Shown here: in pieces, positions 578 through 44,700 of the stretch
Numbering within the stretch: position 1 is the first letter of the stretch
Layout of the letters: each line of letters begins with the position of its first letter
Source of the DNA: an uncultured Ruminococcus sp.
GTDB lineage: Bacteria > Bacillota > Clostridia > Oscillospirales > Ruminococcaceae
Direction of reading: 5' to 3'
NCBI RefSeq assembly: GCF_902762735.1
Contig: NZ_CACWPP010000018.1
Location: 1-54,038 of the forward strand
Length of the DNA stretch: 54,038 nt
Program-made: the position numbers and the translations under genes
Notes under the pieces: generated by a model
Database searches by the model: none
Seen by the model: only the letters and a program-made list of their open reading frames with translations
What the model was told of the DNA's origin: nothing

Positions 578-610
578 AATTATGAATTATGAATTATGAA
601 TTATGAATTA
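578..610. repeat. (ATTATGA)n heptamer tract at the ABC-F stop codon
   Basis: About four and a half copies of ATTATGA. The TAA stop of the minus-strand ABC-F gene (608-610) is its last triplet. The outer flank reads CCATGCCAACA, similar to the flanks of the other tracts in this window. Confidence 0.85.
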
Positions 611-2548
611 ATCCGAAAGCTCCGCCCACTCGTCCATCATCTCGTCAAGTTCGGTGCGCTTTGCTTCCAGCTGATTGCACTTCTCGGTCATCAGACCGTA
701 ATTCGCCGCCACTTCGGGGTCAGCTATCTCGTTTTCAAGGTTGAAAATGTCCACCTCAGCCTGCTCGATAAGTCCTTCCAGCTCCCTGACCCTCGCGCGG
801 CGCTTCGCATCAAGAGCGCGTTGTTCTTTGCTGCGGTAGCTTATCTCCTTTTGCTCACGCTTGTCCTGCTCAGCCTGAATGCGGCGCTGTTCTGCCGCCT
901 GCTCTGCCGCTTTCGCGCCCGCCGCACTGACGGCTTCCGCGTAAGCATCAAAGTTGCCCTCATAACAGTTGACTTCATCAGCCTTGACCTCGATTATGCG
1001 GTCAGCCACCTTGTTTATCAGGTATCTGTCATGGGAGACCAGTATGATAGTCCCCTCAAACTCAGCCAGCACATCTTCCAGAACTTCTTTGGTGTTCAGG
1101 TCGAGATGGTTTGTCGGCTCATCGAGGATAAGTACGTTGCCGCGAGTGTTCGCCATTATCGCAAAGCACAGCTTTGCACGCTCGCCGCCGCTCAGTACCG
1201 AAACAGGCTTGAAAACGTCCTCGCCCGTCAGCAGTACCGCCCCCAGAGCCTTTCGCGCCTCAGCAGGTGTCATGCCGGGGAAACGGTCTGTCAGCTCATC
1301 TATGACAGTGCTGCCCATGTGCAGTATGTTGTGTTCCTGTTCAAAGTAGGAGATCTTCACATTTCCGCCCCACACTATGTTGCCGCGCTCGTGCGGGATA
1401 ATGCCCTGTATCAGCTTGAGTATCGAGGTCTTGCCGATGCCGTTCGCTCCGATTATGGCGGCATGCTCACCCCGCCTGATGTGCAGGTCAAGGCTGTTTA
1501 TCAGCGTCTTTCGGCTCTCGCCCTCGCCCACGACCAGCGGGCAGTCTATCACTTTAACTATGTCCTTAGTCGGCTCGATGTCGTATTCCAGCTTTATCTT
1601 CGGCGGACGGGTGAACATCAGCGGCTTGTCGATGCGCTCTATCCTGTCCAGCATGTGCTGACGCGATTTCGCCATCTTCGCAGTTGAAGCCCTCGTCTTG
1701 TTGCGGACGATGTAATCCTCCAGCTTCTTTATCTCCTCCTGCTGAGCCTCCCACTCTTTCAGCTGACGCTCCGCGTTGTGCTTTTTCTGCACCACATAAG
1801 CGGAATACCCGCCCTTGTAGGAGGTCAGCCGCCCCTGTTCTATCTCGCATATGCGCGAACATACCTTGTTCAGGAAGTACCTGTCGTGCGAAACTATCAG
1901 TATCGAACCCTTGTAGCTTTTGAGATAATCTTCCAGCCACATCAGTGTCGTGAAGTCAAGATGGTTGGTCGGCTCGTCCAGTATCAGCAGGTCGGGGCAT
2001 TCAAGCAGCAGCTTTGCCAGCGCCAGACGTGTCTTTTCGCCGCCCGAAAGCGATGATATGACCCTGTCGCGCGGCACATCGCCAAAGCCCATGCCGTTCA
2101 GGATGCGGCTGATGTTCACGTCGATGCGGTAGCCGTCATTCGCTTCAAAATATGCCGAAAGTTCGGCATACTCCCCGCTGACGACTTCCAGCTCGCCCCC
2201 CGTCAGATGTGTCATCTGCTGTTCAAGCTCGTCCATTCGCTTTCGTGCGGTTATCAATTTGTCGAAGGCCTTGTGCAGTTCCTCGTCAATGGTCGAACTG
2301 CTCTCCAGGCCGCTGTTCTGCCGCAGAAAACCGATGGTGCAGTTTGATGAGACTTCCACCGAACCCAGCCCGTCATCGGTCTTGTCATAGCCCATATCGC
2401 CCATAAGTATGTTCAGCAGTGTTGACTTGCCGCACCCGTTGACACCGATAAGTCCCACAGCTTCGTGATCCTCTATCACGAGATTTATGTCTTTCAGCAG
2501 CGGCTCGCCGTTAAAATATTTATACAGATGCTCAATTTTTACCAGCAT
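608..2548 (-). CDS. ABC-F family ATPase (YdiF/Uup-like)
   Basis: A soluble protein of 646 residues with two ABC cassettes and no membrane segments, the layout of ABC-F proteins, which act on ribosomes rather than as transporters. Cassette 1 has Walker A GVNGCGKST near residues 35-43, an LSGGEKTRLALAKLLL signature and LLILDEPTNHLD. Cassette 2 has GANGIGKTS, VLSGGERAKL and VLILDEPTNHLD. The linker between them (about 250-320) is charged and helical, as expected of the P-site tRNA interaction motif, and the C terminus (about 550-646) looks like a coiled coil. Start: AGGAG lies just before the ATG. It is the last gene of the speE-exonuclease-speB run, 54 bases after speB. Its stop codon is inside a heptamer repeat. 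Housekeeping translation factor versus antibiotic protection cannot be decided from sequence. Confidence 0.93.
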   Translation of the reverse strand: MLVKIEHLYKYFNGEPLLKDINLVIEDHEAVGLIGVNGCGKSTLLNILMGDMGYDKTDDGLGSVEVSSNCTIGFLRQNSGLESSSTIDEELHKAFDKLITARKRMDELEQQMTHLTGGELEVVSGEYAELSAYFEANDGYRIDVNISRILNGMGFGDVPRDRVISSLSGGEKTRLALAKLLLECPDLLILDEPTNHLDFTTLMWLEDYLKSYKGSILIVSHDRYFLNKVCSRICEIEQGRLTSYKGGYSAYVVQKKHNAERQLKEWEAQQEEIKKLEDYIVRNKTRASTAKMAKSRQHMLDRIERIDKPLMFTRPPKIKLEYDIEPTKDIVKVIDCPLVVGEGESRKTLINSLDLHIRRGEHAAIIGANGIGKTSILKLIQGIIPHERGNIVWGGNVKISYFEQEHNILHMGSTVIDELTDRFPGMTPAEARKALGAVLLTGEDVFKPVSVLSGGERAKLCFAIMANTRGNVLILDEPTNHLDLNTKEVLEDVLAEFEGTIILVSHDRYLINKVADRIIEVKADEVNCYEGNFDAYAEAVSAAGAKAAEQAAEQRRIQAEQDKREQKEISYRSKEQRALDAKRRARVRELEGLIEQAEVDIFNLENEIADPEVAANYGLMTEKCNQLEAKRTELDEMMDEWAELSD

Positions 2549-2602
2549 AAAAAACTCCTATACCAAATTTGCGCCGCACTTCGGCGCGGGGCATCAGCCC
2601 TG

Positions 2603-3457
2603 TTATTTGCAGAACCTCAGCAGCATCTCGCGCATCAGCTTGCATGCAAGGGCAGTGCTTCTGCCGCTGTGATCGTAAGCGGGCGAAAGCTCGTTCATGT
2701 CAAAGGCAACAATGTTCAGGTCTGACAGCACTTCGATGGCATCGAGAAGCTCGTCAAAATGCACTCCGCCTGCCTCAGGTGTGCCTGTTCCCGGAAATTC
2801 AGACGGGTCAAGCACATCGAGGTCGAGTGTGAAATAAACAGGTGCCGCGCCGATATAGCCCACAGCTTCATTTATTGTGCGGAAGTCGAACAGGTTCATC
2901 GAGGTGTGCTGTTCCATCATAAAATCAACTTCGCTCTTGTCAGCGCTCCTGATACCGAACTGGAATATCCTTCCGTCGCCCAGCAGGTCGTGACAGCGGC
3001 GCATAACGCAGGCGTGGCTCAGCTTTACCCCGAGATATTCATCTCTCAGGTCAGCATGGGCATCGAACTGTATAACATGCAGGTCGGGATACTTTTCAGC
3101 CGCCGCACGCACAGCGCCCAGCGTCACCAGATGTTCGCCGCCTATCATGCAGGGTATCTTGCCGTCTGCGAGTATGGTGGCAGTCCTCTCCTGAATGTCC
3201 GAAAGAGCCTTGTTCGGCGAACCGAAAGGCAGTTCAAGGTCGCCGCTGTCGAACACCTTTATGTCCAGCAGGTCTTTCATCTGGTACAGCGAGAAAGTTT
3301 CTATCCCGAAACTCTCGCTCCTCATCGCCTGACTCGCGAACCTCGTACCGGGTCTGAAAGATGTGGTGCTGTCAAACGGCGCACCGAACATTACTATCTT
3401 TGCCTCGTCATACTCGCAGTCACAGCCTATAAAAGTGGAAATATTCTTCTCTAACAT
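2603..3457 (-). CDS. speB: agmatinase / ureohydrolase (SpeB)
   Basis: Ureohydrolase of 284 residues that hydrolyses agmatine to putrescine and urea with two Mn ions. The metal ligands are visible: GGEH (~106-109), DAHADLRDEY (~132-141) and DLDVLDP (~212-218). I chose the ATG at 3457 because a GGAGG sits six bases upstream; an ATG 12 bases earlier overlaps that ribosome site and is unlikely to be used. It lies next to speE on the same strand, so both steps to spermidine are encoded together. Arginase or formimidoylglutamase are alternatives within the family, but the speE neighbour favours agmatinase. Confidence 0.9.
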   Translation of the reverse strand: MLEKNISTFIGCDCEYDEAKIVMFGAPFDSTTSFRPGTRFASQAMRSESFGIETFSLYQMKDLLDIKVFDSGDLELPFGSPNKALSDIQERTATILADGKIPCMIGGEHLVTLGAVRAAAEKYPDLHVIQFDAHADLRDEYLGVKLSHACVMRRCHDLLGDGRIFQFGIRSADKSEVDFMMEQHTSMNLFDFRTINEAVGYIGAAPVYFTLDLDVLDPSEFPGTGTPEAGGVHFDELLDAIEVLSDLNIVAFDMNELSPAYDHSGRSTALACKLMREMLLRFCK

Positions 3458-3480
3458 AAAAACCTCCATACAACTTTTTT

Positions 3481-4659
3481 CTAAAGAATACGGTTCATAA
3501 CATGATTATAATATGTATCGTTATTTTCTTTGCATACCTGATATTCACTTACAATATAATCTGTGAATTCATATAGCTGATTTGGATACTCAATAAAAAG
3601 ACGAGTAATTAACCCTTCAGATCTAGAAGCAATAGTGTGATGAATACTTGTACTATATTTCTTTTTGAATGTATTGAAGTCAATATCAATAAGCCAATAC
3701 TTTAATTTGCCTTTTCTTTTAAAACGCAACATCTGATAATATCCAAAATTTATGTCTACATAATTTTTACCAACTGAAACCTTTAATAATGTCGTATCAT
3801 AATTTTTTTCATTTAGAATAGTACACACGGTCTTAAATATAGCATTATCGAAATCTGATAATTGATAATCATTTTTATGTTCAACGGTATATTGATCAAA
3901 ACAATACTTGTATAAAAAACTTGTAACCTGACAGTCGCTTATCGAATCATGTGAGGAATAATCTAAATTAAAATACTCTTTTATTACTGATAATTTGTGA
4001 TTGACTAACTGAGGCAAATATTTTTGGGCAAGTTTAACAGTATCAATAGTTTCATTAAAGAGTCTTTCATACCCATTTTCAAATAATGCGGTTTGAATAA
4101 AAATCATATCAAATCTTCTATTATGAGCAATCAATGGTAAATCACCAATAAACTTTGTGAATAAAGGGAGAACTTCAGAAATACTAGGAGCATCAGAAAG
4201 CATTTGATCAGTAATGCCAGTAAGATCAGTTATGGATAATGGAATTTTATATGGAATATTAACAAAACTGTGAAATCTTTCCTTTTCAACATGATCAATA
4301 TACTTGATAGCACCAATTTCAATAATGTCACAGAAATCAAACTCTAAACCAGTTGTTTCTAAATCAAAAACAACATAATTCGATGGCATTATGCCGCATC
4401 TATTAAAGACGTGAATAACTGTAGGATATCGTTTATAAGATGTACTATTTGAATCTTTTTCTGTAATTGAATCAATGACCCGAAATAAATCATCAAGCAA
4501 CTCACTTTGATGTTCTTTCTCCCATTCAGTCAAAAACTGCCCATTTTCATTTATTTTTTGAACATCTTTGTTTTCAACTAAATCGATTCCATTTTTATCA
4601 ACATCATCAGTTGTTATTATTTTATTATAGTTAGATTTACAAGATTGATTATTACTCAC
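3481..4659 (-). CDS. DnaQ-like DEDDh 3'-5' exonuclease, AT-rich insertion
   Basis: 392 residues. The central domain (about 95-255) is a DEDDh exonuclease: motif I FDLETTGLE (D99, E101), motif II AHNRRFD (D184), motif III HDSISD (H237, D242). All five catalytic residues are present. The first ~90 residues are Asn/Asp/Lys-rich and look disordered. The C-terminal ~140 residues (FGYYQMLRFKRKGKLKYWLIDID segment split here as FGYYQMLRF and KLKYWLIDID) match nothing I know. Base composition is strikingly different: one sampled 60-base line has 19 G/C, against 28 in the adjacent speE. Codon use is AT-rich throughout, and the gene splits the speE-speB pair, so recent horizontal arrival is likely. A free-standing DEDDh nuclease with an unknown C-terminal domain could belong to defence or repair; the role is unknown. 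Confidence 0.85.
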   Translation of the reverse strand: MSNNQSCKSNYNKIITTDDVDKNGIDLVENKDVQKINENGQFLTEWEKEHQSELLDDLFRVIDSITEKDSNSTSYKRYPTVIHVFNRCGIMPSNYVVFDLETTGLEFDFCDIIEIGAIKYIDHVEKERFHSFVNIPYKIPLSITDLTGITDQMLSDAPSISEVLPLFTKFIGDLPLIAHNRRFDMIFIQTALFENGYERLFNETIDTVKLAQKYLPQLVNHKLSVIKEYFNLDYSSHDSISDCQVTSFLYKYCFDQYTVEHKNDYQLSDFDNAIFKTVCTILNEKNYDTTLLKVSVGKNYVDINFGYYQMLRFKRKGKLKYWLIDIDFNTFKKKYSTSIHHTIASRSEGLITRLFIEYPNQLYEFTDYIVSEYQVCKENNDTYYNHVMNRIL

Positions 4660-4721
4660 TAAAATCCCTCCTTATTTGATGATTAAGACCAAACAAATAC
4701 TAAAAAATATATTATTTATCC

Positions 4722-5570
4722 CTACGAATTTTCCAGTATCTCCAGCACATAGTTCGGCAGAGCGAAACAGCCCTTGTGCAGTTCGGTGTTGTAGTAGCGC
4801 GTCTTTATGCCCAGCGCATTCCAGCGGTCTGCTTTCAGGTCATAGACAGGGTGCAGATTCTTCGATGCAAAACCGAACAGCCAGTGCCCCGACGGATATG
4901 TGGGTATATGCGCCTGATACACCATCGTCACAGGGAAGCTGGCACCGATGCGCTTGTGAGTGCGTTTCACCATGTCCACATAGCTGTCGTAGTAAGTGCT
5001 TTCGTGCTGGTTTATCAGTATGCCGCTGTCTGTCAGCGCTTTGAAGCAGTTGCCGTAAAATTCCTTCGTGAACAGCCCCTCACCCGGTCCGAACGGGTCG
5101 GTGGAGTCAACAATTATCAGGTCATACTCGTTCTGCTTTCTGCGCACGTATTTCAGACCGTCCTCAAAAAACAGGTGAACTCTCGGGTCATCGAACCTGC
5201 ATGCAGTCTGCGGCAGAAATTCCTTGCAGACCTGCACCACCTGTTCGTCTATCTCGACCATATCAATATTTTCGACCGACTGATACCTGGTCAGTTCCCG
5301 CACAGTGCCTCCGTCACCCGCGCCGATGACCAGCACGTTCTTTATGTCAGGGTTGACCGCCATCGGCACAGCCGTGACCATCTCATGGTAGATATATTCG
5401 TCCTTTTCGGTCAGCATGATGAAGCCGTCAAGCACCAGCACCCGCCCGAATTCGTAGGTGTCGAACACATCTATCTCCTGATAATAGCTTTTGCCCGAAT
5501 AGAGCTGTTTCTTCACTTTTATTGTGAAATTAACATCATCAGTATGCTTTTCTGTAAACCAAAGATCCAT
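4722..5570 (-). CDS. speE: polyamine aminopropyltransferase (spermidine synthase)
   Basis: 282 residues, the usual length for SpeE. It transfers aminopropyl from decarboxylated S-adenosylmethionine to putrescine. Visible features are the N-terminal beta region (YQEIDVFDTYEFGRVLVLDG), the nucleotide-binding GAGDGGTVRE (~83-92), the acidic VEIDEQ (~105-110) and the catalytic gate region DSTDPFGPGEGLF (~155-167). AGAGGATTAAA precedes the ATG. It is the first polyamine gene of the run, separated from speB by the AT-rich exonuclease gene. Confidence 0.95.
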   Translation of the reverse strand: MDLWFTEKHTDDVNFTIKVKKQLYSGKSYYQEIDVFDTYEFGRVLVLDGFIMLTEKDEYIYHEMVTAVPMAVNPDIKNVLVIGAGDGGTVRELTRYQSVENIDMVEIDEQVVQVCKEFLPQTACRFDDPRVHLFFEDGLKYVRRKQNEYDLIIVDSTDPFGPGEGLFTKEFYGNCFKALTDSGILINQHESTYYDSYVDMVKRTHKRIGASFPVTMVYQAHIPTYPSGHWLFGFASKNLHPVYDLKADRWNALGIKTRYYNTELHKGCFALPNYVLEILENS

Positions 5571-5610
5571 TTTAATCCTCTCTTTTTCTGTTTATTTCAG
5601 ACGATTACGG

Positions 5611-6147: not shown

Positions 6148-6156
6148 ATCAGCCAC

Positions 6157-6663: not shown

Positions 6664-6696
6664 CGTTATCTCCTGCATTTTTTGTTTAATATATTT

Positions 6697-9645
<2,949 letters not shown>

Positions 9646-9689: not shown

Positions 9690-9978
9690 TACAGAATATT
9701 CACTTCTTTTTTAACAATATGAACTTTTTGCATTTGCGCAGGCATCGCGTGACTGCTTTTGCGCGTCACAAAAGGGAGATGTTTTCAAACAGCATGGTGT
9801 GCGGGTGCGGCGTGCCGCTTATCAGCTTTGAAGTTCTGACGCAGCGGGTCCGTATTTCTCTTTTTATGGGCTGCCTCCCCTCCCACCCACCCACAAAACC
9901 CCGCGCCTTGGACCATCGCAAATCTCAGCATTCTCCGACCCATGCCAAAAATTATGAATAAAAATGAATATTCCGAAT

Positions 9979-10138
9979 TGTGGTTATCCCGCTGACACAC
10001 CACAAAAACAGCGGCTATACAGAACTTAGGGGTCTTGGCGTATATCTTTCCCCCGCCGCAGGCGGGGGAAAAATATACAACGCTCAATTATCCTTTTGTT
10101 TACCGCATTTTTAGTTGGTGTGCTAAAGGGATAACCAC
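9979..10138 (+). mobile_element. Family B miniature element, copy B1
   Basis: A 160-bp element. Left end GTGGTTATCCC..GACACACC and right end GGTGTGCTAAAGGGATAACCAC are inverted repeats, and the centre is the hairpin TTTCCCCCGCC-GCA-GGCGGGGGAAA. It is flanked by the 19-bp direct repeat AAAAATGAATATTCCGAAT (9960-9978 and 10139-10157). The rest of the 9690-9959 gap has no gene I can support; CCATGCCAAAAATTATGAAT near 9940 resembles the flank and start of the heptamer tracts. Confidence 0.85.
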
Positions 10139-10144
10139 AAAAAT

Positions 10145-10214: not shown

Positions 10215-11750
10215 ATGTTGAACGAATTGAAACTCACGACCGATACAGTCTGCGTGACGGAAAAACTGCTGGATACCACTGAGGAACTCCCGCTGGAAAG
10301 GGACTTTGTACTGCCCGATTATTTCCCCGATGTTTTCCGCATACTGAGGTGTACAGTCGAACCGCGTCTGACTGCCCAGACAGTCACCGCCGATAAGCTG
10401 ACTTTTGAACTTACAGCCGTTATCCGCGTGCTTTACCTGACTGAGGGCAGCCGCCGCATCAACTGCGCCGAACAGGACGTTGAACTATCCCGCACAGTCG
10501 AACTATCAGCCGACTGCCCCGCCCCCGAAGTCAGCATCGAACTCACCGCAAGAGGTGTCAGCTGCCGCGCTAAAGGCAGCCGCCGCATAGCAGTCCGCGG
10601 AACTGTCTGTGCGGCACTGAAAGTCTGCTGTACCCGCGAAAAAACAGTGCTGACAGGCGGCGCAGGCTGCGGCATTCAGCTGAGAAAACAGACCGTCACC
10701 TGCCCCGTCAGACGGCTTACCGCTTCAAAGCGCATAACCGTTATCCAGCAAACATCTCTGCCCGAAGATAAACCCGCAGTAGGCACTGTGCTGAGAACAG
10801 GCTGTGTCATCTCCCGCAGTGAGTGCAGAACTGTGGCGGGCAAACTTGCTGTCAAGGGCGAAGCCGAACTGGAAGTGCTTTACGCCTGCATCGACAAAAC
10901 AGGCGAGGACTGTGTCCAAACACTGAAATTCACCCTGCCTTTCAGCCAGATAATCGACATGGAGGGCGTTGATGACAGCTTCAGGGTCAGCGCTGAGGTC
11001 ACGCCTGCGGGGTGCAGCCTTATGGCAGGCAGCGGCGAGGAAAAGACAGCCGAATGGGAACTGACGCTGAATGTGTTCTGCACCGCCGAAAAAACAGGTA
11101 CTTCTGTCTATGTGACCGATGCTTTCTCCACCGAATACGAGTGCTTCCCCGATGACATAGCCGAGATACCCGCAGGTCAGGCAGACAGCAACACCCTTTC
11201 AGCCAACGCCGAATGCGCCCTTACAGCACCCGACGGTACAGTGGGAATGGTCTGCGACTGTTCAGCCGAATGCGGCAGACCCACCATCAGAAAAGAGGAC
11301 GGCAAATACCTGCTGACAGGCAGTGTGACCTGCGCAGTCATGGGCGAGGGCAGTGAGGGCGGCATCTTCTGCACTGAGGGTCAGTGCGCCTACGAAGCCG
11401 AACTCCCCGCCGCCGACAGCAGTGTGCTGACCGAAGCGAACGCCGCAGTCACAGGCTGTTCCTACTATCTCGGCGAGGGCGGAAGCATTCGCGTGCGTGC
11501 AGATGTTCGCATCTGCTGTAAAACCGTCAGCGGCGGTAATGTGAAGCTGGTCAGCAGTATAAAAATGGACGAAGAAAAGCCCGCCTGCCGCGACAACAGC
11601 TGTGCAATAAGGCTGTGCCGCTGCATCGGCGGCGAGGACATATGGGACATAGCCAAACGCACCCGCACCTCAGTCGAAGCCATCTTAGAGGACAACGAAC
11701 TTGACAGCGACACCACCCCCGCAGGAATGATAGTGATTCGCAATGTTTAA
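10215..11750 (+). CDS. sipL: SipL-like spore morphogenesis protein (DUF3794/SPOCS + LysM)
   Basis: 511 residues. The N terminus (LPLERDFVLPDYFPDVFRILR) is the hallmark of DUF3794/SPOCS proteins. Repeated beta domains follow, two with paired Cys-rich strands, and the last ~48 residues are a LysM domain (EDIWDIAKRTRTSVEAILEDNEL..GMIVIRNV). In Clostridioides difficile, SipL has this plan and binds SpoIVA at the forespore surface through its LysM domain. Here spoIVA is the next gene on the same strand, which fits that partnership. AGGAGG lies eight bases before the ATG at 10215; longer upstream ATG options run through the B1 element and are rejected. The stop codon starts a heptamer tract. Cys content is unusually high. 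Confidence 0.88.
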   Translation: MLNELKLTTDTVCVTEKLLDTTEELPLERDFVLPDYFPDVFRILRCTVEPRLTAQTVTADKLTFELTAVIRVLYLTEGSRRINCAEQDVELSRTVELSADCPAPEVSIELTARGVSCRAKGSRRIAVRGTVCAALKVCCTREKTVLTGGAGCGIQLRKQTVTCPVRRLTASKRITVIQQTSLPEDKPAVGTVLRTGCVISRSECRTVAGKLAVKGEAELEVLYACIDKTGEDCVQTLKFTLPFSQIIDMEGVDDSFRVSAEVTPAGCSLMAGSGEEKTAEWELTLNVFCTAEKTGTSVYVTDAFSTEYECFPDDIAEIPAGQADSNTLSANAECALTAPDGTVGMVCDCSAECGRPTIRKEDGKYLLTGSVTCAVMGEGSEGGIFCTEGQCAYEAELPAADSSVLTEANAAVTGCSYYLGEGGSIRVRADVRICCKTVSGGNVKLVSSIKMDEEKPACRDNSCAIRLCRCIGGEDIWDIAKRTRTSVEAILEDNELDSDTTPAGMIVIRNV

Positions 11751-11780
11751 TTCATAATTCATAATTCATAATTCATAATT
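11748..11780. repeat. (TCATAAT)n heptamer tract at the sipL stop codon
   Basis: The TAA stop (11748-11750) is the first triplet of the tract, which ends AATTATTGACATGG. This is the same orientation relative to the gene as the other tracts. Confidence 0.85.
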
Positions 11781-11789
11781 ATTGACATG

Positions 11790-20363: not shown

Positions 20364-20458
20364 TATGATAATTTGACTGTATATTGCTGAGATACATAAT
20401 GGCTGTTCTTTCGTATTGGGATATATCTTTAAAACAACAATACAATATCCCATGTCAA

Positions 20459-20491
20459 TAATTATGAATTATGAATTATGAATTATGAATT
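20459..20491. repeat. (ATTATGA)n heptamer tract at the P-type ATPase stop codon
   Basis: The tract contains the TAA stop of the minus-strand ATPase gene (20476-20478) and encodes its last residues, H-N-S. CCATGTCAATA lies at the outer edge and TTGACATGG at the inner edge. Confidence 0.85.
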
Positions 20492-22332
20492 GACATGGCT
20501 CTCATGGCGTTGAGGATAGCTATGACCGACACGCCCACATCTGCAAAGACCGCCAGCCACATGTTGGCTATGCCCAGCGCACCCAGTACCAGCACCAGCG
20601 CTTTCACGCCAAGCGCGAACACAATGTTCTCGTGTACTATCCGCACCGTCTTGCGGGCTATACGCATCGCAAGGGAGATCTTTGCGGGGTCGTCGTCCAT
20701 CAGCACTATGTCTGCCGCTTCTATCGCCGCATCACTGCCCATACTGCCCATAGCTATGCCCACATCTGCGCGGGAAAGCACAGGCGCATCATTTATGCCG
20801 TCCCCGACAAACACCAGCGTCGAATTTGGCGCTTTCTTTTCAAGAAGTTCTTCCACCTTCGACACCTTGTCAGCAGGCAGAAGTTCCGCGCAAACGGTGT
20901 CTATCCCCAGTTCGTCCGCGACTGCATCTGCGGTTGACTTCGCATCGCCTGTCAGCATGACTGTCTGCTTTACGCCGTTCTCTTTAAGACTGCGTATCGC
21001 TTCTGCGGAAGTTTCCTTCACCTTGTCGGATATAACGATATGCCCCGCATATCCGCCGTCTGCCGCAACGTGTACCATAGTGCCGCGACAGTCGCATTCG
21101 GGAACGGCTACTTTTTGGTCAGCCATCAGCTTTTTGTTGCCCGCATAGACTTCTCTGCCGTCTATCACAGCCTTTATGCCGTGCCCCGAGATCTCTTCAT
21201 CGGAAGTTATGCGCGAACGGTCTACCTCCTTGCCGAACTTTGCACATACCGACCTCGCTATCGGGTGGTCGGAATAGCTTTCCGCATGGGCGGCAAGGTC
21301 GAGAAGCGCATCATCAGCCATCGAGTGAGAGTGTATCTTCGTCACCTCGAAACTGCCTTTTGTCAGCGTGCCTGTCTTGTCGAAAACAACGGTCTCAGCG
21401 GAGGCAAGGGCTTCCAGATAATTTCCGCCCTTGACCAGTATGCCGCGCTTGCTTGCACCGCCGATACCGCCGAAAAAGCTCAGCGGCACAGAAATGACCA
21501 GCGCACACGGACAGCTGATAACTAAGAATATCAGCGCACGGTGTATCCACATGCCCCAGTTTCCGCCCGTTATCAGCGGCGGAAGCACTGCCAGCGCCAG
21601 CGCCGCGAACACCACAGACGGTGTGTAGTAGCGGGCAAATCTTGTGATGAAGTTCTCTGCCTTAGCCTTTTTGCTGGCAGAATTTTCGACCAGTTCCAGT
21701 ATCTTAGTAACGGTCGAATCCTCATACTCTTTAGTTACCCTTACTTTAAGCAGACCGCCCTGATTGATACAGCCGCTCACAACTTCGTCGCCCACGCCTA
21801 TCTCGCGGGGAAGGCTCTCACCCGTCAGCGCGGAAGTGTCCACCGAAGAACTTCCCTCGATAACAACGCCGTCCAGCGGTATCTTCTCGCCGGGCTTTAT
21901 GACGATGATGCTGTCCAATTCGACCTCTTCGGGAGCGACTTCTTCCAGCTGACCGTCACGCTCTAAATTGGCGTATTCGGGGCAGATGTCCATGAGGTCG
22001 CTTATCGACTGCCTTGACTTACCCACCGCAACGCCCTGAAACAGTTCGCCTATCTGGTAGAAAAGCATTACCGATGCGGCTTCGGGGTATTCGCCCACGA
22101 AAAGTGCGCCGACAGTCGCCACGCACATCAAAAAATTCTCGTCAAATACCTGACCGTGAATGATGCCGCGAACAGCTTTCCACAAAACGTCCCAGCCAAT
22201 GACAAAATATGGGACGAGAAAGGCTATCAGACGGGGAATGCTTTTTTCCTCAAATGGCAGAAGCGCCGCCGCTATCAGCAGTACCCCCGCCGCGATTATT
22301 CTTATAAGAGTATTTTTCTGCTTGCGAGTCAT
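20476..22332 (-). CDS. P1B-type heavy-metal ATPase (CadA/ZntA-like)
   Basis: 618 residues. An exporter of divalent metal such as Zn, Cd or Pb. It has the TGES actuator loop, the CPC metal site in a membrane helix (ISCPCALV, ~274), the phosphorylated Asp in DKTGTLTKG (~315), the HP motif of the N domain (SDHPIARSV) and GDGINDAPVL. The final helix has the LGIANMWLAVFADVGVSV pattern of zinc/cadmium pumps. The usual N-terminal HMA domain is missing and is encoded as a separate gene just upstream. Last gene of the arsR operon. Its C-terminal I-H-N-S is produced by the heptamer repeat at the stop codon. Confidence 0.94.
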   Translation of the reverse strand: MTRKQKNTLIRIIAAGVLLIAAALLPFEEKSIPRLIAFLVPYFVIGWDVLWKAVRGIIHGQVFDENFLMCVATVGALFVGEYPEAASVMLFYQIGELFQGVAVGKSRQSISDLMDICPEYANLERDGQLEEVAPEEVELDSIIVIKPGEKIPLDGVVIEGSSSVDTSALTGESLPREIGVGDEVVSGCINQGGLLKVRVTKEYEDSTVTKILELVENSASKKAKAENFITRFARYYTPSVVFAALALAVLPPLITGGNWGMWIHRALIFLVISCPCALVISVPLSFFGGIGGASKRGILVKGGNYLEALASAETVVFDKTGTLTKGSFEVTKIHSHSMADDALLDLAAHAESYSDHPIARSVCAKFGKEVDRSRITSDEEISGHGIKAVIDGREVYAGNKKLMADQKVAVPECDCRGTMVHVAADGGYAGHIVISDKVKETSAEAIRSLKENGVKQTVMLTGDAKSTADAVADELGIDTVCAELLPADKVSKVEELLEKKAPNSTLVFVGDGINDAPVLSRADVGIAMGSMGSDAAIEAADIVLMDDDPAKISLAMRIARKTVRIVHENIVFALGVKALVLVLGALGIANMWLAVFADVGVSVIAILNAMRAMSIHNS

Positions 22333-37481: not shown

Positions 37482-37527
37482 TTTTAACTCCTCCAAATAG
37501 TACCCGTTTTATCCATATTTATTATAT

Positions 37528-37687
37528 GTGGTTATCCCGCTGACACACCACAAAAACAGCGGCTATACAGAATTTAAGGTTCTTGGCATATATCTTTCCC
37601 CCGCCGCAGGCGGGGGAAAGATATACAAAGCTCAATTATCCTTTTGTTCACGGCATTTTTAGTTGGTGTGCTAAAGGGATAGTCATA
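37528..37687 (+). mobile_element. Family B element, full copy B5
   Basis: 160 bp, nearly identical to B1, but ending GGGATAGTCAT rather than GGGATAACCAC. Flanked by TTATTATAT (37519-37527 and 37688-37696). Confidence 0.85.
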
Positions 37688-37719
37688 TTATTATATCAGC
37701 CAAATTATCAGCCTGACGA

Positions 37720-37833
37720 TCAGATATACCGCCTGATACAGCGCCTAGTACAAGCTAACAGCAGCCACAAAACATAGTATATCAGAGATACCCGAAATAT
37801 CCATGTAAATATCAGCCCGATGATGTGCAGCAT
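37720..37833 (-). CDS. 37-residue hydrophobic peptide, possible remnant
   Basis: GGGAGGTGCTGCC precedes ATG 37833; the frame closes at 37720-37722. The product is one hydrophobic stretch (LIYYVLWLLLACT). Another frame of the same DNA reads LYQAVYLIVRLIIW, like LYQVIYLITCGMIKL at the end of the upstream gene, so the stretch may be a broken duplicate of that gene rather than a true peptide. Confidence 0.3.
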   Translation of the reverse strand: MLHIIGLIFTWIFRVSLIYYVLWLLLACTRRCIRRYI

Positions 37834-37854
37834 GGCAGCACCTCCCAAAACGAG

Positions 37855-38148: not shown

Positions 38149-38349
38149 TGTCATTCCCTCTTTTGCTGTGGAAATCATTTTTCTTTCTTCTGATTTTACC
38201 ACAACACAGCATTTTTGTCAACAAAAAAGCAGGCAGAAAAAATTTCCTGCCCGCAAAATTTCCATATATTCGCCTAAAGCCAAGCCCTCACCAATAATTA
38301 CGAATTATAACTATGCCATATATTCAGCAGAAAACTCAGCCTCACACAT

Positions 38350-38382
38350 AATTATGAATTATGAATTATGAATTATGAATTA
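38350..38382. repeat. (ATTATGA)n heptamer tract next to the galE stop codon
   Basis: The tract adjoins the TGA of galE (38383-38385). Unlike the others, the outer flank is CTCACACATA rather than CCATGYCAATA. Confidence 0.85.
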
Positions 38383-39393
38383 TCAAAGCCCATTTGGGTT
38401 GTTTTTGATGAAGTTCCAGCTGCTTGCTGTCATTTCGTCAAGGGTCAGCTTAGCTTCCCAGCCAAAGACTCTCTTTGCCTTGTCGGGGTTCGCGTAGCAG
38501 GTGGCAATATCACCTGCGCGGCGGGGCATCACCTTGTAGGGGAGTTCCTTGCCGCAAGCCTTTTCAAAGCTGTGCAGTACATCGTAAACGGAAGAACCCT
38601 TGCCTGTACCCAGATTTACCGCGTCACAGCCCTTGTTCTCCAGCACGTATTTAAGCGCACACAGATGACCCTTAGCCAGATCGACAACGTGGATATAATC
38701 GCGCACACCTGTGCCGTCGGGGGTGTCGTAGTCGTCACCGAAAATGCCCAGCCTTTCCAGCTTGCCCACAGCCACCTGACAGATGTACGGCAGCAGATTG
38801 TTTGGTATGCCGTTGGGGTCTTCACCGATAAGACCGCTTTCATGTGCGCCGATGGGGTTGAAGTACCTCAGCAGTGATACCGACCATTCGGGGTCTGAAA
38901 CGCAGACATCTCTGAGTATCTGCTCTATCATCACCTTAGTGTAGCCGTAAGGATTTGTGGCAGAAGTCGGCATATCCTCCGTGTAGGGGGCTTTGTTGAC
39001 AGGACCGTAAACAGTCGCAGAAGAGGAGAAAACCATCTTCTTGACACCTGCATTGCGCATCGCCTGTATCAGCAGAAGTGTGCCCGTGATGTTGTTGTGG
39101 TAATACTCAACAGGCTTCTGCACGCTTTCGCCAACGGCTTTAAGACCTGCAAAGTGTATCACGGCATCTATCTTGTTTTCCTCAAATATCCTCTCCATAG
39201 CCGAAAGATCAAGCATGTCAGCTTCATAAAAGCCGAATTCCTTGCCTGTGATCTGCCTTATCCTGTTCAGCGCTTCGGGTTTTGAGTTTGAAAAGTTATC
39301 CATGATGACCACATCATAGCCTGCATTCAGCAGTTCAACAACAGTGTGGCTGCCGATAAATCCCGCGCCGCCTGTGACCAGTATCATTGACAT
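38383..39393 (-). CDS. galE: UDP-glucose 4-epimerase
   Basis: 336 residues from ATG 39393 (GGAGGTACGCTT upstream; the frame runs 18 codons further without a ribosome site). Extended SDR fold: NAD-binding VTGGAGFIGSH, catalytic Ser/Tyr/Lys in SSSATVYG and NPYGYTKVMIEQ, then NPIGAHESGLIGEDPNGIPNNL (split NPIGAHESG, NNLLPYICQVAVG), all typical of GalE. It interconverts UDP-glucose and UDP-galactose for galactose use and for cell-surface glycans; TagB/F-like genes lie upstream. A good promoter precedes it. Confidence 0.97.
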   Translation of the reverse strand: MSMILVTGGAGFIGSHTVVELLNAGYDVVIMDNFSNSKPEALNRIRQITGKEFGFYEADMLDLSAMERIFEENKIDAVIHFAGLKAVGESVQKPVEYYHNNITGTLLLIQAMRNAGVKKMVFSSSATVYGPVNKAPYTEDMPTSATNPYGYTKVMIEQILRDVCVSDPEWSVSLLRYFNPIGAHESGLIGEDPNGIPNNLLPYICQVAVGKLERLGIFGDDYDTPDGTGVRDYIHVVDLAKGHLCALKYVLENKGCDAVNLGTGKGSSVYDVLHSFEKACGKELPYKVMPRRAGDIATCYANPDKAKRVFGWEAKLTLDEMTASSWNFIKNNPNGL

Positions 39394-39435
39394 AAGCGTA
39401 CCTCCATACCAAAGAAATAACAATGTTGTAACCTT

Positions 39436-39463
39436 ATTATACCACATTATTTGGATATTTCAA
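39436..39463 (-). promoter_or_regulatory. sigma-A promoter of galE
   Basis: Minus strand TTGAAA (39458-39463), 16-base spacer, TATAAT (39436-39441). Confidence 0.7.
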
Positions 39464-39519
39464 TTGACAAATCCGCTAAAATTACATTTTGTTCATTTTG
39501 CTGACCCGTCATGCAAAAA

Positions 39520-39880
39520 TTCTTTTCAGCACTTTCGCCCTCACGGCTTGTCAAGTCCTTCGGGAATGCCTTATCACAGCTTTTCACTCAGCGCTTTTTC
39601 AATTTCCTCTGCTTTGTCTGATATTATCAGCACATCAAAACCGCCTGTTTTCAGCACTTTCACCCTCACGGCTTGTCAGGTTCTTCGGGAATGCCTTATC
39701 ACAGCTTTTCACTCAGCGCTTTTTCAATCCCCTCTGCTTTGTCTGATATTATCAGCACATCAAAACCGCCTGTTTTCATCAGCGCTTTTTCAATCCCCTC
39801 TGCTTTGTCTGATATTATCAGCACATCAAAACCGCCTGTTTTCAGCACTTTCGCCTTTCCCAGCTTGTCAAGTTCTTCGG
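39520..39880. repeat. nested tandem repeats at the 3' end of the DUF4358 gene
   Basis: A ~64-bp unit (encoding KTGGFDVLIISDKAEGIEKAL) occurs twice in frame (39713-39840) and once more beyond the stop (about 39580-39650). A longer ~133-bp unit (TTCAGCACTTTC..CTTCGGGAATGCC..) is repeated at about 39525 and 39658. Confidence 0.85.
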
Positions 39881-40253
39881 GACGGTAATCGCGAAAAGTC
39901 GAAGTGCGGCTTTCGAGACGGTCTTTCATTATCTGCTGACCGTCAACGCCGTCAGCAAATTTTATCACCGAGATCTCATCTGCATAGCCGCCCTCAGTGT
40001 TGTACATTATGCCGCCGTCAAGTATATCTGCGCTTTCAACCGAAAACAGCTTGCCCGCACTGCTGTCGAATTTTTCGTCGCCTGCCATTATGATACCGTC
40101 CAGCTTTTCATCGCTTATGCCGTCCAGCAGGTCAGCCGCTGTGACTTCTGCCGCCGCAGTGTCGGCTGAACTTTCGCTGACCGCGCCGCTGCCGCACCCG
40201 CCCAGAAGCAGTGCCGCCGCCAGCAGGAGAGCCGTCCTAATCTTCATCTTCAT
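39699..40253 (-). CDS. DUF4358-type lipoprotein with C-terminal repeat expansion
   Basis: 184 residues from ATG 40253 (GAGGTGG upstream). Lipoprotein signal with lipobox LLLGGC. The domain (ADEISVIKFADGVDGQQIMKDRLESR segment, shown as ADEISVIKFADG and DRLESRTSTFRDYRPEEL) resembles DUF4358 proteins, small secreted proteins of unknown role in Firmicutes. The end is two in-frame copies of KTGGFDVLIISDKAEGIEKAL. The start overlaps the end of the 880-residue gene upstream by 17 bases, so it is probably translated with it. The out-of-frame third repeat beyond the stop suggests the tail is still changing. Confidence 0.8.
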   Translation of the reverse strand: MKMKIRTALLLAAALLLGGCGSGAVSESSADTAAAEVTAADLLDGISDEKLDGIIMAGDEKFDSSAGKLFSVESADILDGGIMYNTEGGYADEISVIKFADGVDGQQIMKDRLESRTSTFRDYRPEELDKLGKAKVLKTGGFDVLIISDKAEGIEKALMKTGGFDVLIISDKAEGIEKALSEKL

Positions 40254-42879
40254 AACTGTCTGCCACCTCAAAATCTTCATAGCTGTCTATCTCGCCGTTT
40301 TCGCAGAGCCATGTAATTATCTCATTATATATCTCACGTTTATATCCGAGTTCTGCCCTGCCGAAGAACTCGTCTGCCGCGCGTGTCTTTTCTTCCGACT
40401 GATGAACGCCGTCCTTGAGATGACCGCACAGCAGGTCTGCCAGCCTGTATGCACTTTCCGCCCGCTCCCCGAAGTCATATCCGCCCTCGCCGCCGAAATA
40501 TATCAGCGGTTTTCGCATAATGCCTGCGGAGATCTCTTCACCGTTGTCGGTGACTATGAGCGCGGCGCGGCTTTTCAGTTCGTCCTCGTCAACATCATCT
40601 GTCAGCACCGTTATCCTGTCATGTTTCGGCAGATCTTCGGCATCTTCATTTTTAACGCCGCCAAGCGCTACGGTGAGGGTGTATCCGCTGTCTGTCAGCG
40701 CATCGGTGAACCTCCTGTTTTCAAGCAGTGTCCTGATATTTCTGAAAAATTCGGTATCTTTGAAGTCTGCATTATCCTCAGCCTTATAGTGCGCCAGCAT
40801 CAGCAGAAGTTTTTCTTCGCCCGATGTGTCCTTTATCCCGTCATAGCAGGTAAGACCCGTCAGCCGCAGTATATCGGTGTTATCGTAGCCGTATTCGGGC
40901 TTTTTAAGCTCGTCCGTATATTTTTTCGTGCCGCAGAAGTACAGCCGCACATTGTCGCAGAGACGGTTGTTCTCGCTTACGGCAGGCATGTCATCGGGTG
41001 AATTCTGAAGCATTATGACATTCATTCGGCTGCATCTGCCCAGCGTGCCTTGCGCCTCTGTCATACAGCAGAAGTTCGTCCTGTCAGCGCGGGGTCTTGT
41101 GGTGATATAGACCTGTGCGTTCAGGAAAAGCAGTTTGTGCAGGAAACTGTCTGTGTAGAGGGGCTTGTAGCCGTCTTTTATAAGGCGTTCTGCGGCGGGG
41201 CTTTCCCTTTCGGTGAGGTAATAGCAGTAGATCTCATCGTGGCGGGTCATGGCATAGCGGAACATGTCCTCTGCCGCGCCGCCGCCAATTTCGGGGTCAT
41301 CGGCGAATATCCAGATCTTTCTGCCCTCAGCCCAGCGGTGAGCGATCCTGTCTCCTGTGCGCAGAAAAAACGGTACGCCCCTTTCAGCAGACCTGCTGAC
41401 CGCCTTGCCGAAGCGCCTGCGCTGTTCGCTGATCGTCATGGGCTGAGTGACCAGTCTGCCGCCCTCAGAGGTGATGCAGATGTCATTTGTGAGCCTTATG
41501 AAGCTGTCATACCTGTCATCAAGCAGTTTTGCCGACTGCTGACCCGAACAGCGCTGTTTTATCTCGTAGCGGCAGCCTTTGAACAGCAGGAAAAATCTCA
41601 GTTCAGCGCGGGTGCCGCTCAGCGGGAATGTCAGGTGGAAACTCTTTTCCACGCTTATCTCCCTGCCGAAAAAGAAGTGTTTCACGAATTTGCTGTCATA
41701 GGTGATGGTGTATTCTTTGCCCGCGTATTCGGCTATCAGCTTTGTGCGGCGATGATTGAAAATATCATCGAACCTGCCGTCTATCTCCGTCATATCTTTG
41801 CGGTGGTTTATCAGGTCTATCCTGATCTCCGCAGCGGTGCTGTCAGCTATCACGATGTCTTTCTGCACCGCGAACAGCTTATCGCGGGAGTAGCTAAGGT
41901 CGGTGTAATAGTCCTCACGCCCGTGTTTCAGCCCTAAAATAATGCGTTTGTCGCTGACGGTGCAGTGTGGCAGGTCATCTGCGTAGATGCCGCAAAGCAC
42001 CTTGTCCTCAACGGGTGCGAGGGCTTTTGTCAGGGTCTTTATGACAGTTTCGCGCTCATTTTCGGGGAAGTTTGTCAGCAGTCTGCCGTAGTCTATGCGG
42101 CGCAGGACTTCTGTGGCGGCATAGTGCTGTAAAAACAGCGGCAGTCTGCCGTCCTTGCCCTTGCATTTTTCCTCTGTGGGAAGAATGCAGTTCTCAAATA
42201 TCGCGGTATGCCATTTTGCGGTCATGGCATCGGGCGGGAAAGACTCGGCATCTGCATAATTTTTATTGCAGTCTGCCTGCAGGACTTTCAGCGTGCTGTC
42301 ATACCATATCCTACGGCAGTCGTTCAGCATAGCGAGCATATTTTTCTGCTCTGCGAAAGTGCCTGCTTCTGTTTCAAAGGGGTGTTCTGCCAGATAGGAA
42401 GTCCTTGCGCAAACGCCCTCCAGACTGTCGGGAAAAGCGCAGAATACCTTATCGAGATCAAGTATCCCTTTTTGAAGTGTGAGTTCGCGTTTCAGCTGTT
42501 CTTTATTGGCGGCTAAACGTCTGCCGCAGGCGAAATTCAGCTCTTTATCGTCGTCCAGTGCCGCAGTCAGGCGGGGGAAGTATGACGGGTCAGCCTTAGC
42601 GCCTGCCCGCATGACAGTGCAGTACTCGGCGTTTGAGAACCTGACGAAAGTGTTCAGCAGTTCGGCTTCGCTTTTTTCGCCTACATTTATGAAAGCGGTC
42701 ATGCCGTAGGCGGCAGACCTTTCGAGGTAGAGTTTTTTCCTGTCCTCTTCGTTGAAGTCGCCCGCGATTATCAGGAATATATCTTTGGTCAGTTCGCCCG
42801 ACTGTGATGCGATGTTCTCCACCGTTTCCAGTGCCACGCGGTCTGAACTGCCCGTTATCAGAAGTACCGAGAGCTTCAT
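40237..42879 (-). CDS. large TagF-like protein with altered catalytic motif
   Basis: 880 residues. The N-terminal part (~1-250) looks like a GT-A glycosyltransferase (MKLSVLLITGSSDRVALETV). The last ~350 residues follow the CDP-glycerol glycerophosphotransferase fold (GRKIWIFADDPEIGGGAAEDMFRY.., VYITTRPRADRTNF). The Q-H-G/W-H-G motif that carries the catalytic His in TagB/TagF appears here as MLQNSPDD, and the distal VTDNGEEISAGIMRKPLIYF lacks the usual YSS. It may be inactive or use another substrate. One base separates it from the stop of the TagB/F gene upstream. A wall-polymer role is likely from context. Confidence 0.7.
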   Translation of the reverse strand: MKLSVLLITGSSDRVALETVENIASQSGELTKDIFLIIAGDFNEEDRKKLYLERSAAYGMTAFINVGEKSEAELLNTFVRFSNAEYCTVMRAGAKADPSYFPRLTAALDDDKELNFACGRRLAANKEQLKRELTLQKGILDLDKVFCAFPDSLEGVCARTSYLAEHPFETEAGTFAEQKNMLAMLNDCRRIWYDSTLKVLQADCNKNYADAESFPPDAMTAKWHTAIFENCILPTEEKCKGKDGRLPLFLQHYAATEVLRRIDYGRLLTNFPENERETVIKTLTKALAPVEDKVLCGIYADDLPHCTVSDKRIILGLKHGREDYYTDLSYSRDKLFAVQKDIVIADSTAAEIRIDLINHRKDMTEIDGRFDDIFNHRRTKLIAEYAGKEYTITYDSKFVKHFFFGREISVEKSFHLTFPLSGTRAELRFFLLFKGCRYEIKQRCSGQQSAKLLDDRYDSFIRLTNDICITSEGGRLVTQPMTISEQRRRFGKAVSRSAERGVPFFLRTGDRIAHRWAEGRKIWIFADDPEIGGGAAEDMFRYAMTRHDEIYCYYLTERESPAAERLIKDGYKPLYTDSFLHKLLFLNAQVYITTRPRADRTNFCCMTEAQGTLGRCSRMNVIMLQNSPDDMPAVSENNRLCDNVRLYFCGTKKYTDELKKPEYGYDNTDILRLTGLTCYDGIKDTSGEEKLLLMLAHYKAEDNADFKDTEFFRNIRTLLENRRFTDALTDSGYTLTVALGGVKNEDAEDLPKHDRITVLTDDVDEDELKSRAALIVTDNGEEISAGIMRKPLIYFGGEGGYDFGERAESAYRLADLLCGHLKDGVHQSEEKTRAADEFFGRAELGYKREIYNEIITWLCENGEIDSYEDFEVADSYEDED

Positions 42880-42880
42880 A

Positions 42881-43987
42881 TCAGCGCTCCTTTCTGCCGA
42901 ATATCTCGTTTATTATCCTGTCGGTGGCGTGACCGTCACAGGCTGACATGTGGTATTCTGCGCAGGCTTCGAGGTCAGCGGTACTGCGGCAGAGGAGTTC
43001 CTGTTCGACTGCTTCTGCCAGTTCGTCGGCGGTCTGCGCAACGGTGGTGGGGAAGCTGAAATAGTCCACATAGAAGCCGCGCTGTGTATCGAACTCGCGC
43101 AGGTCGGGCGCGAAGAATACGAAAGGCTTTTTGTAGAGAAGCCAGTCGAACACCACGCTGGAATAGTCTGTCACGAGTATGTCAGCGACGGCGAAAAGCC
43201 TTTCAGTGGGGAAGCCGTCATCCTGCTGCATATGGGGGTGCAGTTTTTTTATCAGATACCAGCCCCGCGCCCTGCATACCTGTTCGATGATCTCCTCACC
43301 GACAACGAAGGGTTCTGCGGCGTTGCCGCGAAAAGTGGGTGCCCACAGCACGACAGTCCTGCCTGCCGCATCGGGGTGTGCTTTGAAAAATTTTTCGCGG
43401 CAGAGTTCGTTGTATTTTTTGCTGTAATAGATGTCAGTTCGGCTGACACCCAGCGCTTTGACGTTTTCGCGTTTCTGGTGCATCGAGTCAGCCATGATGG
43501 GGGCAACGCATTCAGCGCTGACAGTCCAGAGGTCATAGCCGCCGAAAACTTCTCCCTTATAGAAAGCGGGCACGCAGTCTTTTGAATCATACCCTGCTTT
43601 TTTCAGCAGTCCGCAGGAGTGCCACAGCTGTGTGACGAAAGTTTCCCTGCGTTTTTTACAGCTTGACACAGGCAGGAAAGTATCGCAGATAAAGACATAT
43701 TCCGCCCTGCCGAAAGCTGTCATAAAGTCGAGTATGAACCGCGCCATTTGCAGTTTGCCGCATTTTGAGAAGTCGAGGTAGAATTCCTTGATGTGCATGT
43801 TGCCCATTTTCGCGACTTTTTTGCGCATCACCCGCATACTGAAAGGGCAGTCATTGTGGTGTGCATCAGCGAACAGCACCAGTCCTTTTTCTATCTTTCC
43901 CCGTGAATTCAAGAAGTATATGAACGGCAGCAGGCAATTTTGCAGCAGCATTTTCGCCAGCTGTCTGATCTTCAGCTTTATGCTCAT
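42881..43987 (-). CDS. CDP-glycerol glycerophosphotransferase family protein (TagB/TagF-like)
   Basis: 368 residues. Short basic N terminus with a hydrophobic stretch (LLPFIYFLN) for membrane association, then the GT-B-like core: QLWHSCG with the catalytic His, KALGVSRTD, VLWAPTFRG, KLHPHM with the second His, and TDYSSVVFDWLLYKKPFVFF. All family landmarks are intact, in contrast to its downstream neighbour. It should add polyol-phosphate units to teichoic-acid-like wall or capsule polymers on the inner membrane face. No CDP-glycerol synthesis gene is nearby. Confidence 0.9.
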   Translation of the reverse strand: MSIKLKIRQLAKMLLQNCLLPFIYFLNSRGKIEKGLVLFADAHHNDCPFSMRVMRKKVAKMGNMHIKEFYLDFSKCGKLQMARFILDFMTAFGRAEYVFICDTFLPVSSCKKRRETFVTQLWHSCGLLKKAGYDSKDCVPAFYKGEVFGGYDLWTVSAECVAPIMADSMHQKRENVKALGVSRTDIYYSKKYNELCREKFFKAHPDAAGRTVVLWAPTFRGNAAEPFVVGEEIIEQVCRARGWYLIKKLHPHMQQDDGFPTERLFAVADILVTDYSSVVFDWLLYKKPFVFFAPDLREFDTQRGFYVDYFSFPTTVAQTADELAEAVEQELLCRSTADLEACAEYHMSACDGHATDRIINEIFGRKER

Positions 43988-44585
43988 TTTCCGACCTCCG
44001 TGATCTTACTGTATTTGGATACAAATACCCATTCTATATAGTATAGCACATTATACGGAGTTTTGTCAATCTTTTAACATAAAGCGCAGTCAGCTCGCCA
44101 CGCCGCGCGGGTCGGTTGTTCTTATACTTTGGAGTGCTGACCGCCCGCCGAAAACGCTAACGCTGTTCGGCTATCAGACGCGGGCAATTCGCGCCCGCAC
44201 ACGGGGAGCGCTTTTTGCGGGAAATGAGTACGCTCATTTCTTTGCGAATTGCCCGCTTGGGGGTCTGCACTATCTATGTGTAGGGCGGGGGCGCGTGCGA
44301 CCGTGTCGGCGTGACTCCCGCCGTGTTACACCGCCCTTTACATGCTTTTTTCGATGGTTTTGACCTCCTATCGTCTTGCACCTTGTTTTCCAAACTTGTT
44401 TTGTTTGTCGCGTTGCTTTCTGCTTCCCCGATTGAGGGGCGCTGCCCCTCAAACTCCCCGCCACCCTTTCGCGAAAGGGTGGACGGAAAGCTCAACTCGC
44501 GCATAGCTTTGTGTTCTTTCGCGGCTTTGTTTGGTGGCTCAGTCAGCACTTTTTCCGCTAAAACGGCTCGCTATCGTCCATGCCA
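43988..44585. other. structured intergenic region
   Basis: No gene I can support. A long inverted repeat, GCGGGCAATTCGC near 44172-44184 with GCGAATTGCCCGC near 44243-44255, encloses a smaller hairpin (GAAATGAG-TACG-CTCATTTC). GTAGGGCGGGGGCG..CTCCCGCCG at 44280-44322 is a Family D-like core. Weak open frames here have no ribosome sites. Confidence 0.5.
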
Positions 44586-44700
44586 ATAATTATGAATTAT
44601 GAATTAATAATTTGGCGGCTCAGTCAGCACTTTTTTCGCTGAAACGTCTCGCTATCGTCCATGCCAATAATTATGAATTATGAATTATGAATTATGAATT
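44533..44700. repeat. tandem duplication carrying two heptamer tracts
   Basis: A ~82-bp unit (GGCTCAGTCAGCACTTTTT..GCTCGCTATCGTCCATGCCAATA + heptamers) occurs twice in tandem, at about 44533-44610 and 44615-44700. The second tract (44668-44700) contains the stop codon of cwlD. Confidence 0.8.

Follow-up and report, generated by a model that had tools for sequence, protein, structure and literature searches.

The subject of this analysis is a family of short tandem heptamer arrays, (AATTATG)n, in the genome of an uncultured Ruminococcus sp. (genome label G000). They were noticed in a stretch of 54,038 nt (contig NZ_CACWPP010000018.1, assembly GCF_902762735.1; hereafter the window), where two units with at most one mismatch were matched 17 times against 0 expected from 100 shuffles. 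The outer edge of these arrays lies at the edge of functional DNA, mostly a stop codon and sometimes an apparent terminator T-run or a -35 box, and their inner side consists of fast-changing, recombining intergenic DNA. We give about an even chance to the explanation that the array forms the invariant outer end of a one-sided dispersed repeat, which, judged by eye and from the gene calls, is non-coding including its inner DNA and which was trimmed outward to the functional limit.

In the whole genome (4.06 Mb in 242 contigs, 97% complete) three exact units were matched 158 times (86 forward, 72 reverse, overlapping matches included) and the reversed control pattern of three exact units not at all. 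The array together with its conserved flank, referred to as the anchor, gave 135 matches with one mismatch allowed. Positions relative to genes were determined in 988 kb, comprising the window and 60 stretches around listed tracts, with tracts counted among the matches listed; this tract-based choice of stretches should not bias the position of the tracts relative to genes. Using our own hexamer model, 807 genes were called in this sample. Two or more units, with interruptions of up to 12 bases merged, were counted as a tract, which yielded 148 tracts, and AATTATG was the unit in 154 of the 165 period-7 arrays.

None of the 148 tracts lies deeper than 60 bases within a gene. Toward the neighbour on the outer (AATTA) side, 99 are outermost, 77 of them facing a gene 3' end and 22 a 5' end. 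Sixty of the 77 array edges facing a 3' end overlap the stop codon if degenerate units are included in the array (44 without them); another 6 are 0-5 bases past it, 4 are found at 6-40 bases and 7 farther than 40. The interval from a 23-base overlap with the coding sequence up to 5 bases past its end contains 66 edges. If arrays were placed uniformly across the intergenic space on the 3' side, about 3% would be expected at 0-5 bases past the stop. On the inner side the smallest distance among the 105 tracts with a gene in the stretch is at least 56 bases, and the 30 inner 3' ends all lie at least 88 bases away. In the genome of the sister species (G004), for which genes were called separately, 55 of the 59 tracts facing 3' ends are positioned at -28 to +5, but this is not an independent sample because many sites are shared by descent. 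An earlier note on the window had proposed a fixed orientation, with (TCATAAT)n on the coding strand, and had named missing enrichment at stop codons or random orientation as grounds to abandon its view; the orientation is indeed fixed, and both enrichment and non-random orientation were found in about a quarter of the genome.

The tracts located more than 5 bases past the stop were inspected by eye. Of these 11, 5 directly follow a T-rich run, 3 of these with a clear terminator hairpin; one follows a stop-sited array, two lie behind a hairpin or another repeat, one stands plain at +6 and two are far away (288 and 515 bases). Of the 22 start-facing arrays, 7 have a good sigma-70-like -35 box beginning at most 16 bases away, and, judged by eye, about five more reach such a box once the degenerate units that follow are included. 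At stop-touching ends a terminator-like hairpin, where found, lies beyond the array (23 of 56 ends), and the array is therefore probably transcribed. Among control gene ends of the same genome 130 of 291 have a hairpin, which starts at a median of 35 bases after the stop.

The gene ends were compared with orthologous loci from two outgroup genomes (G002 and G003), retrieved via two chimeric queries. The genes were hand-chosen, the first 14 overlapping an array by design and the second 14 having a recognisable function; a usable outgroup match was obtained for 28 genes, 27 of them stop-touching. Compared with the nearest outgroup, a choice that favours small differences, the C-terminus of the 27 proteins is of the same length in 17 cases, longer by one residue in 3, shorter by one in 2, longer by three in 2, and differs by +2, +4 and -6 amino acids in one case each, so that 26 are within -1 to +4 amino acids. 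Since protein length is unchanged in 17 of 27, the junction lies at the native stop. Between 24 bases before and 45 bases after the stop, no array-like unit was present in either outgroup for 24 of the 28 genes, and these outgroup genes end where the array begins. As a description, the idea of an insertion aimed at gene 3' ends, which had been put forward from the window alone, is thus supported. For galE, an FtsW-like gene, acn and fum, the end of the outgroup gene coincides with that in G000 or is no more than two codons from it, and the outgroup's own spacer follows. The related suggestion that the tract replaced an older stop holds for the P-type ATPase, acn and a secA-like gene, in which the reading frame extends 1-4 codons into the array, and not for the 17 proteins of unchanged length. 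In the P-type ATPase six relatives end in NAMRxM plus other residues, whereas G000 and its sister end in array-encoded residues. The cwlD product falls short of its two outgroup counterparts by 8 and 1 residues. At least one outgroup carries an array-like unit in 4 of the 28 genes, including ruvB and uvrA, which indicates that the repeat family is older than this species; ruvB has short outgroup arrays of about 1.7 and 2.7 units at the same stop and a longer one in G000. A different degenerate heptamer, AATAGTG, was observed not far past the P-type ATPase stop in a relative (G023, locus L139) and also in locus L094.

The copies share a common layout, consisting of a degenerate anchor of about 25 bases that ends in CATGYCAAY (consensus approximately AAAACggcAtaCTttCGtcCATGYCAAY), 2-6 heptamers and then AATTA. 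The sequence TGYCAAY stands immediately before the array in 98 of the 130 cases that could be used in G000 and in 68 of 90 in the sister genome. The left flank is homologous to that of another copy in 118 of the 148 tracts (over about 20 to 600 bases) and the right flank in 66, often in tandem copies, and the element is therefore regarded as one-sided. Within the inner DNA there are hairpins, repeats nested in one another and at least one further short element that is polymorphic. One inner family of very similar members (GGCGGCACGGCATTCTCCAATGCATGCCAAT) has several of its copies at stops. At two places in locus L079 (minus strand 4148, plus strand 6161) two anchors stand head to head via one or two heptamers with nothing else between them; outward deletion may leave fused anchors of this kind as its final products, but nothing can be proved from two cases. 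Contigs C151, C169, C171, C177 and C213 (L081, L084, L085, L087 and L090) each have an end about 110-150 bases away from an array belonging to one inner family, and a longer repeat may therefore be hidden there.

Between the two sister genomes the inner DNA has changed extensively. For 60 of the 148 tract sites both flanks were present in the stretches from the sister genome, which were mostly picked around its own tracts, a choice biased towards shared sites; one tandem cluster accounts for some of the 60. At 49 of these sites the distance between the flanks differs by more than 20 bases, and at 43 the compared gap retains at least one exact unit. The right flank aligned from its start at 41 sites, 25 of which have an array of at least two exact units ending there in the sister genome; these 25 orthologous pairs comprise nine of equal length, 11 whose arrays are 7 or 14 bases apart in length and 5 with some other small difference. 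When 29 inner segments were compared on both strands, one was found to be inverted relative to both genes (L035 versus L152, 167 bases, 94% identity), and in L057 versus L148 (two rows) the inner segment is partly inverted. The inverted segment (L035 5740-5950, L152 9690-9930) holds two terminator-like hairpins, with the two genes outside it and inverted arrays at its flanks. A separate element of about 160 bases, starting near TATGACTATCCCTTTAGCACACC and ending near GGGATAACCACA, occurs in either orientation in L057, L062, L075 and the sister locus L148; at three compared sites it is present in one sister and missing from the other, and it has the look of an ordinary miniature inverted-repeat transposable element (MITE).

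According to the explanation we favour, the repeat would have dispersed across the intergenic DNA of a single branch of the genus, for the most part before the split from the sister species. Insertion would have been followed by small outward deletions that moved its edge to the functional limit. Since all frames of (TCATAAT)n contain a stop, no harm would come from a junction on a stop codon or just ahead of one, and genes would come to end inside the array as a by-product. The number of units presumably alters by slippage or unequal recombination, and inverted arrays would allow the segment between them to flip. Trimming is preferred over directed insertion because one rule then covers stops, terminators and promoters. 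Short repeats of this kind can silently rewrite stop codons and C-termini. Here the placement is accurate to within a few bases and fixed in orientation, comes with a shared anchor and can be read against outgroups; the anchor offers a motif that may be bound by a protein, and the sites of gene-end takeover offer a concrete handle.

The six tracts first recognised in the window lie where they had been reported to within 1-2 bases, and, as had been claimed, five of them contact a stop codon. The array at 578..610 (plus strand, 4.7 units) holds at its outer end the stop of an ABC-F gene (608-610; gene 608-2548, minus strand), with the anchor CATGCCAAC at 569..577 (plus strand) on its inner side. 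The array at 11748..11780 (minus strand, 4.7 units) holds the sipL stop (11748-11750; the gene is on the plus strand and ends at 11750), its anchor CATGTCAAT being located at 11781..11789 on the minus strand. On the plus strand, the array at 20459..20491, with the anchor CATGTCAAT at 20451..20459, holds the stop of the P-type ATPase (20476-20478; gene 20476-22332, minus strand), and the array at 44668..44700, with the anchor CATGCCAAT at 44660..44668, that of cwlD (44678-44680; gene 44678-45406, minus strand). The products of both genes end in IHNS, as had been pointed out earlier, and in the 988 kb 12 of 77 neighbouring proteins do so according to a by-eye count. The plus-strand array at 38350..38383 has one base (38383) in common with the galE stop TGA (gene 38383-39447, minus strand). 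It is the exception to the common far-side flank that had been described for most tracts, since CATGYCAAY was found at the other five of the six. The remaining array (44586..44606, plus strand, 2.7 units; anchor CATGCCAAT at 44579..44587, plus strand) contacts no stop and is the inner copy of an 81-base tandem duplication beside cwlD. In the sister genome an array or degenerate array is present at all five stop-touching sites.

The neighbouring genes match the Pfam families ABC_tran/ABC_tran_Xtn, SipL, E1-E2 ATPase, NAD-dependent epimerase and Amidase_3, in agreement with the names given in the earlier note, from which galE and cwlD are taken as gene names that are not proven. A search for RNA families in the window and five repeat-rich loci (six sources) detected one transfer RNA and nothing else. 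The window furthermore contains a separate dispersed repeat of about 160 bases (9976-10143, 37526-37687, 45984-46145 and 53814-53982), which also occurs in the sister genome and, at 92-97% identity, in genome G009, as well as longer tandem repeats of 105 bases (47868-48282), 125 bases (39523-39778) and 179 bases (52491-52847).

Several points weigh against insertion followed by outward trimming. No clean empty site was found between close relatives, the insertion being deduced from outgroups at about 70-87% nucleotide identity. No target-site duplication was shown, the inner end being not sharply defined. Comparison of the sister genomes revealed no intermediate of outward deletion, and direct targeting of stops would look alike. 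At 16 of the 41 sites no array of two exact units ends at the aligned flank in the sister genome, and thus the arrays are not all kept. The scan for -35 boxes took the best of many hexamers and had no control. Finally, in other phyla 23 of 69 arrays were located at stop sides against 14.8 expected, which is a modest excess.

A possible, though clearly less probable, alternative is that the repeat is delivered by an enzyme directly to the stop codon, exactly or to within a few bases and in one orientation, with no trimming afterwards. It would account for junctions at the native stop and not at arbitrary points in the spacer ahead of the terminator (the median of 35 bases at control ends), and for the presence of several copies of the very similar GGCGGCACGGCATTCTCCAATGCATGCCAAT inner family at stops. 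However, of the 99 outermost arrays 22 are directed at gene starts, a few arrays are situated past terminators, no common junction sequence was seen among the genes except the stop itself, and we know of no enzyme that inserts repeats at stop codons. It seems unlikely that the array is instead kept for a function at the 3' end of the messenger RNA, either as a frame-independent stop or as a binding site in the 3' untranslated region. The orientation fixed relative to the gene, the TAA in every frame and the probable transcription suggested by hairpins beyond the array in 23 of 56 ends would agree with such a role, and translational regulation has been proposed for the TAACTGA repeats (PMC4679880). 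Nevertheless, the affected genes are of mixed function, 24 of 28 outgroup orthologues manage without an array, and the anchor and inner repeats would be left unexplained. Selection for a translational backstop, one of the two causes offered in the earlier note, is not supported as the general cause in view of the start-facing arrays, several of them beside a promoter-like site, and of those beyond terminators: a backstop is less likely because a single unit would be enough and stops are not required at many of the sites that arrays occupy.

Birth in place, by which an array would have grown by slippage from a TAAT-like sequence at the stop, appears improbable. Slippage is an idea published for heptamers (PMC4692102). 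The labile unit number fits it, as do the short outgroup arrays at the ruvB stop where G000 has a longer one and the array-like outgroup units of three further genes. Against this, TGYCAAY precedes 98 of 130 arrays and inner families recur at unrelated genes; the shared anchor and recurring inner families therefore argue for copies that were dispersed and not separately born. Least probable is the addition of heptamers at broken or copied ends by a telomerase-like or other reverse transcriptase. Repeats at one end and a variable other end resemble the tails of retroelements. Some bacterial reverse transcriptases (DRT10) make tandem-repeat complementary DNA from an RNA template, but the passages considered in PMC12632851 give a 9-nt repeat for one system and other lengths elsewhere, none being named as this heptamer. 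No RVT_1 match was detected in G000 (97% complete), whereas the control search was positive in 3 of 14 known genomes; a retroelement origin in G000 was accordingly dismissed, unless a diverged enzyme was missed.

Outside this genome the repeat is patchily distributed. Exact three-unit arrays were found in 8 of 29 genomes of the genus (G000 included) in very uneven numbers; a sample of 297 genomes from the family yielded 3 with such arrays, two of which belong to this genus. Exact four-unit arrays occur in at least 117 stretches from records named Bacteroidales, Nostoc, Microcystis, Lentisphaerae, Anaerolineae and others. None of 98 arrays in other phyla is located deep inside a gene. A strong preference of AATTATG for gene edges in all phyla was considered and rejected, as 36 of 76 arrays lie within 5 bases of a gene edge and 37.8% (about 29) are expected; the null model allowed a 25-base overlap, and the Ruminococcus loci L184, L209 and L229 as well as arrays without both neighbours were excluded from the count. 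Given the modest stop excess elsewhere, the sharp placement at stops is attributed to this Ruminococcus family and not to the heptamer itself. Only tentatively do we suggest that one-sided, heptamer-marked intergenic elements of several phyla are put exactly at stops or the nearest functional edge by an undescribed process, which took over many stops in one Ruminococcus branch.

The arrays share the traits of the heptamer direct-repeat class, i.e. short tandemly repeated repetitive (STRR) or TAACTGA-type sequences, being head-to-tail, mostly intergenic 7-base units with a patchy occurrence across phyla and length differences in multiples of seven. MITEs, repetitive extragenic palindromic (REP) sequences and bacterial interspersed mosaic elements (BIME) are likewise short, non-coding, dispersed, intergenic and often downstream of genes (see PMC4853749). 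In a count of termini with a loose pattern (235 termini, 27 inside genes removed beforehand), the outward-facing inverted pair expected of a MITE cleanly encloses no more than 8 of the 137 intergenic regions that bear arrays; 125 have a single orientation and 4 another arrangement. With so few regions bounded by inverted arrays, a plain two-ended MITE was rejected.

The earlier note had regarded the phenomenon as unknown, but heptamer arrays with stops in all frames at gene ends have been published for Beggiatoaceae (PMC4679880) and heptamers overlapping stops for Xanthomonas and Nostoc (PMC4692102). The letters of the present repeat were not found in a paper search, most subscription journals being beyond its reach, and absence from print is not claimed. 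The TAACTGA direct repeats of Beggiatoaceae, Cyanobacteria and Bacteroidetes (MacGregor 2015, PMC4679880) likewise consist of a few 7-base direct units in intergenic DNA. Read in one orientation they contain stops in all three frames, and some sets lie over a stop codon; they are also patchy across phyla, and no mechanism is established. That the array supplies the stop follows from the sequence itself, and the same is noted there for TAACTGA. In contrast to the Ruminococcus arrays, which are mostly on stops, most TAACTGA sets are described just upstream of starts. Furthermore, the Ruminococcus element has a conserved anchor and an inner repeat, and by our own comparison the unit differs by a few bases.

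The GGGAATC and GGGGA(C/T)T heptamers of Xanthomonas and Nostoc are, according to PMC4692102, strand-specific and located at most 50 bases from the stop on the coding strand, stop overlaps included. They obey a one-sided rule irrespective of gene orientation, prefer about four units and vary in length between close relatives. They differ in being G-rich and G-quadruplex-capable, and no anchor or inner repeat is reported in the sections considered; moreover, they are generally not associated with mobile elements and have stable surroundings, whereas the inner DNA in Ruminococcus is highly variable. Heptamer arrays thus recur in unrelated bacteria, and the reasons for a unit of seven and for its placement are left open in the works considered here. 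Stop-overlapping heptamer arrays being already published in other phyla, we regard the Ruminococcus arrays as a further variant of that kind. That such unlike heptamers would follow a common one-sided rule is, in our view, the most interesting lead.

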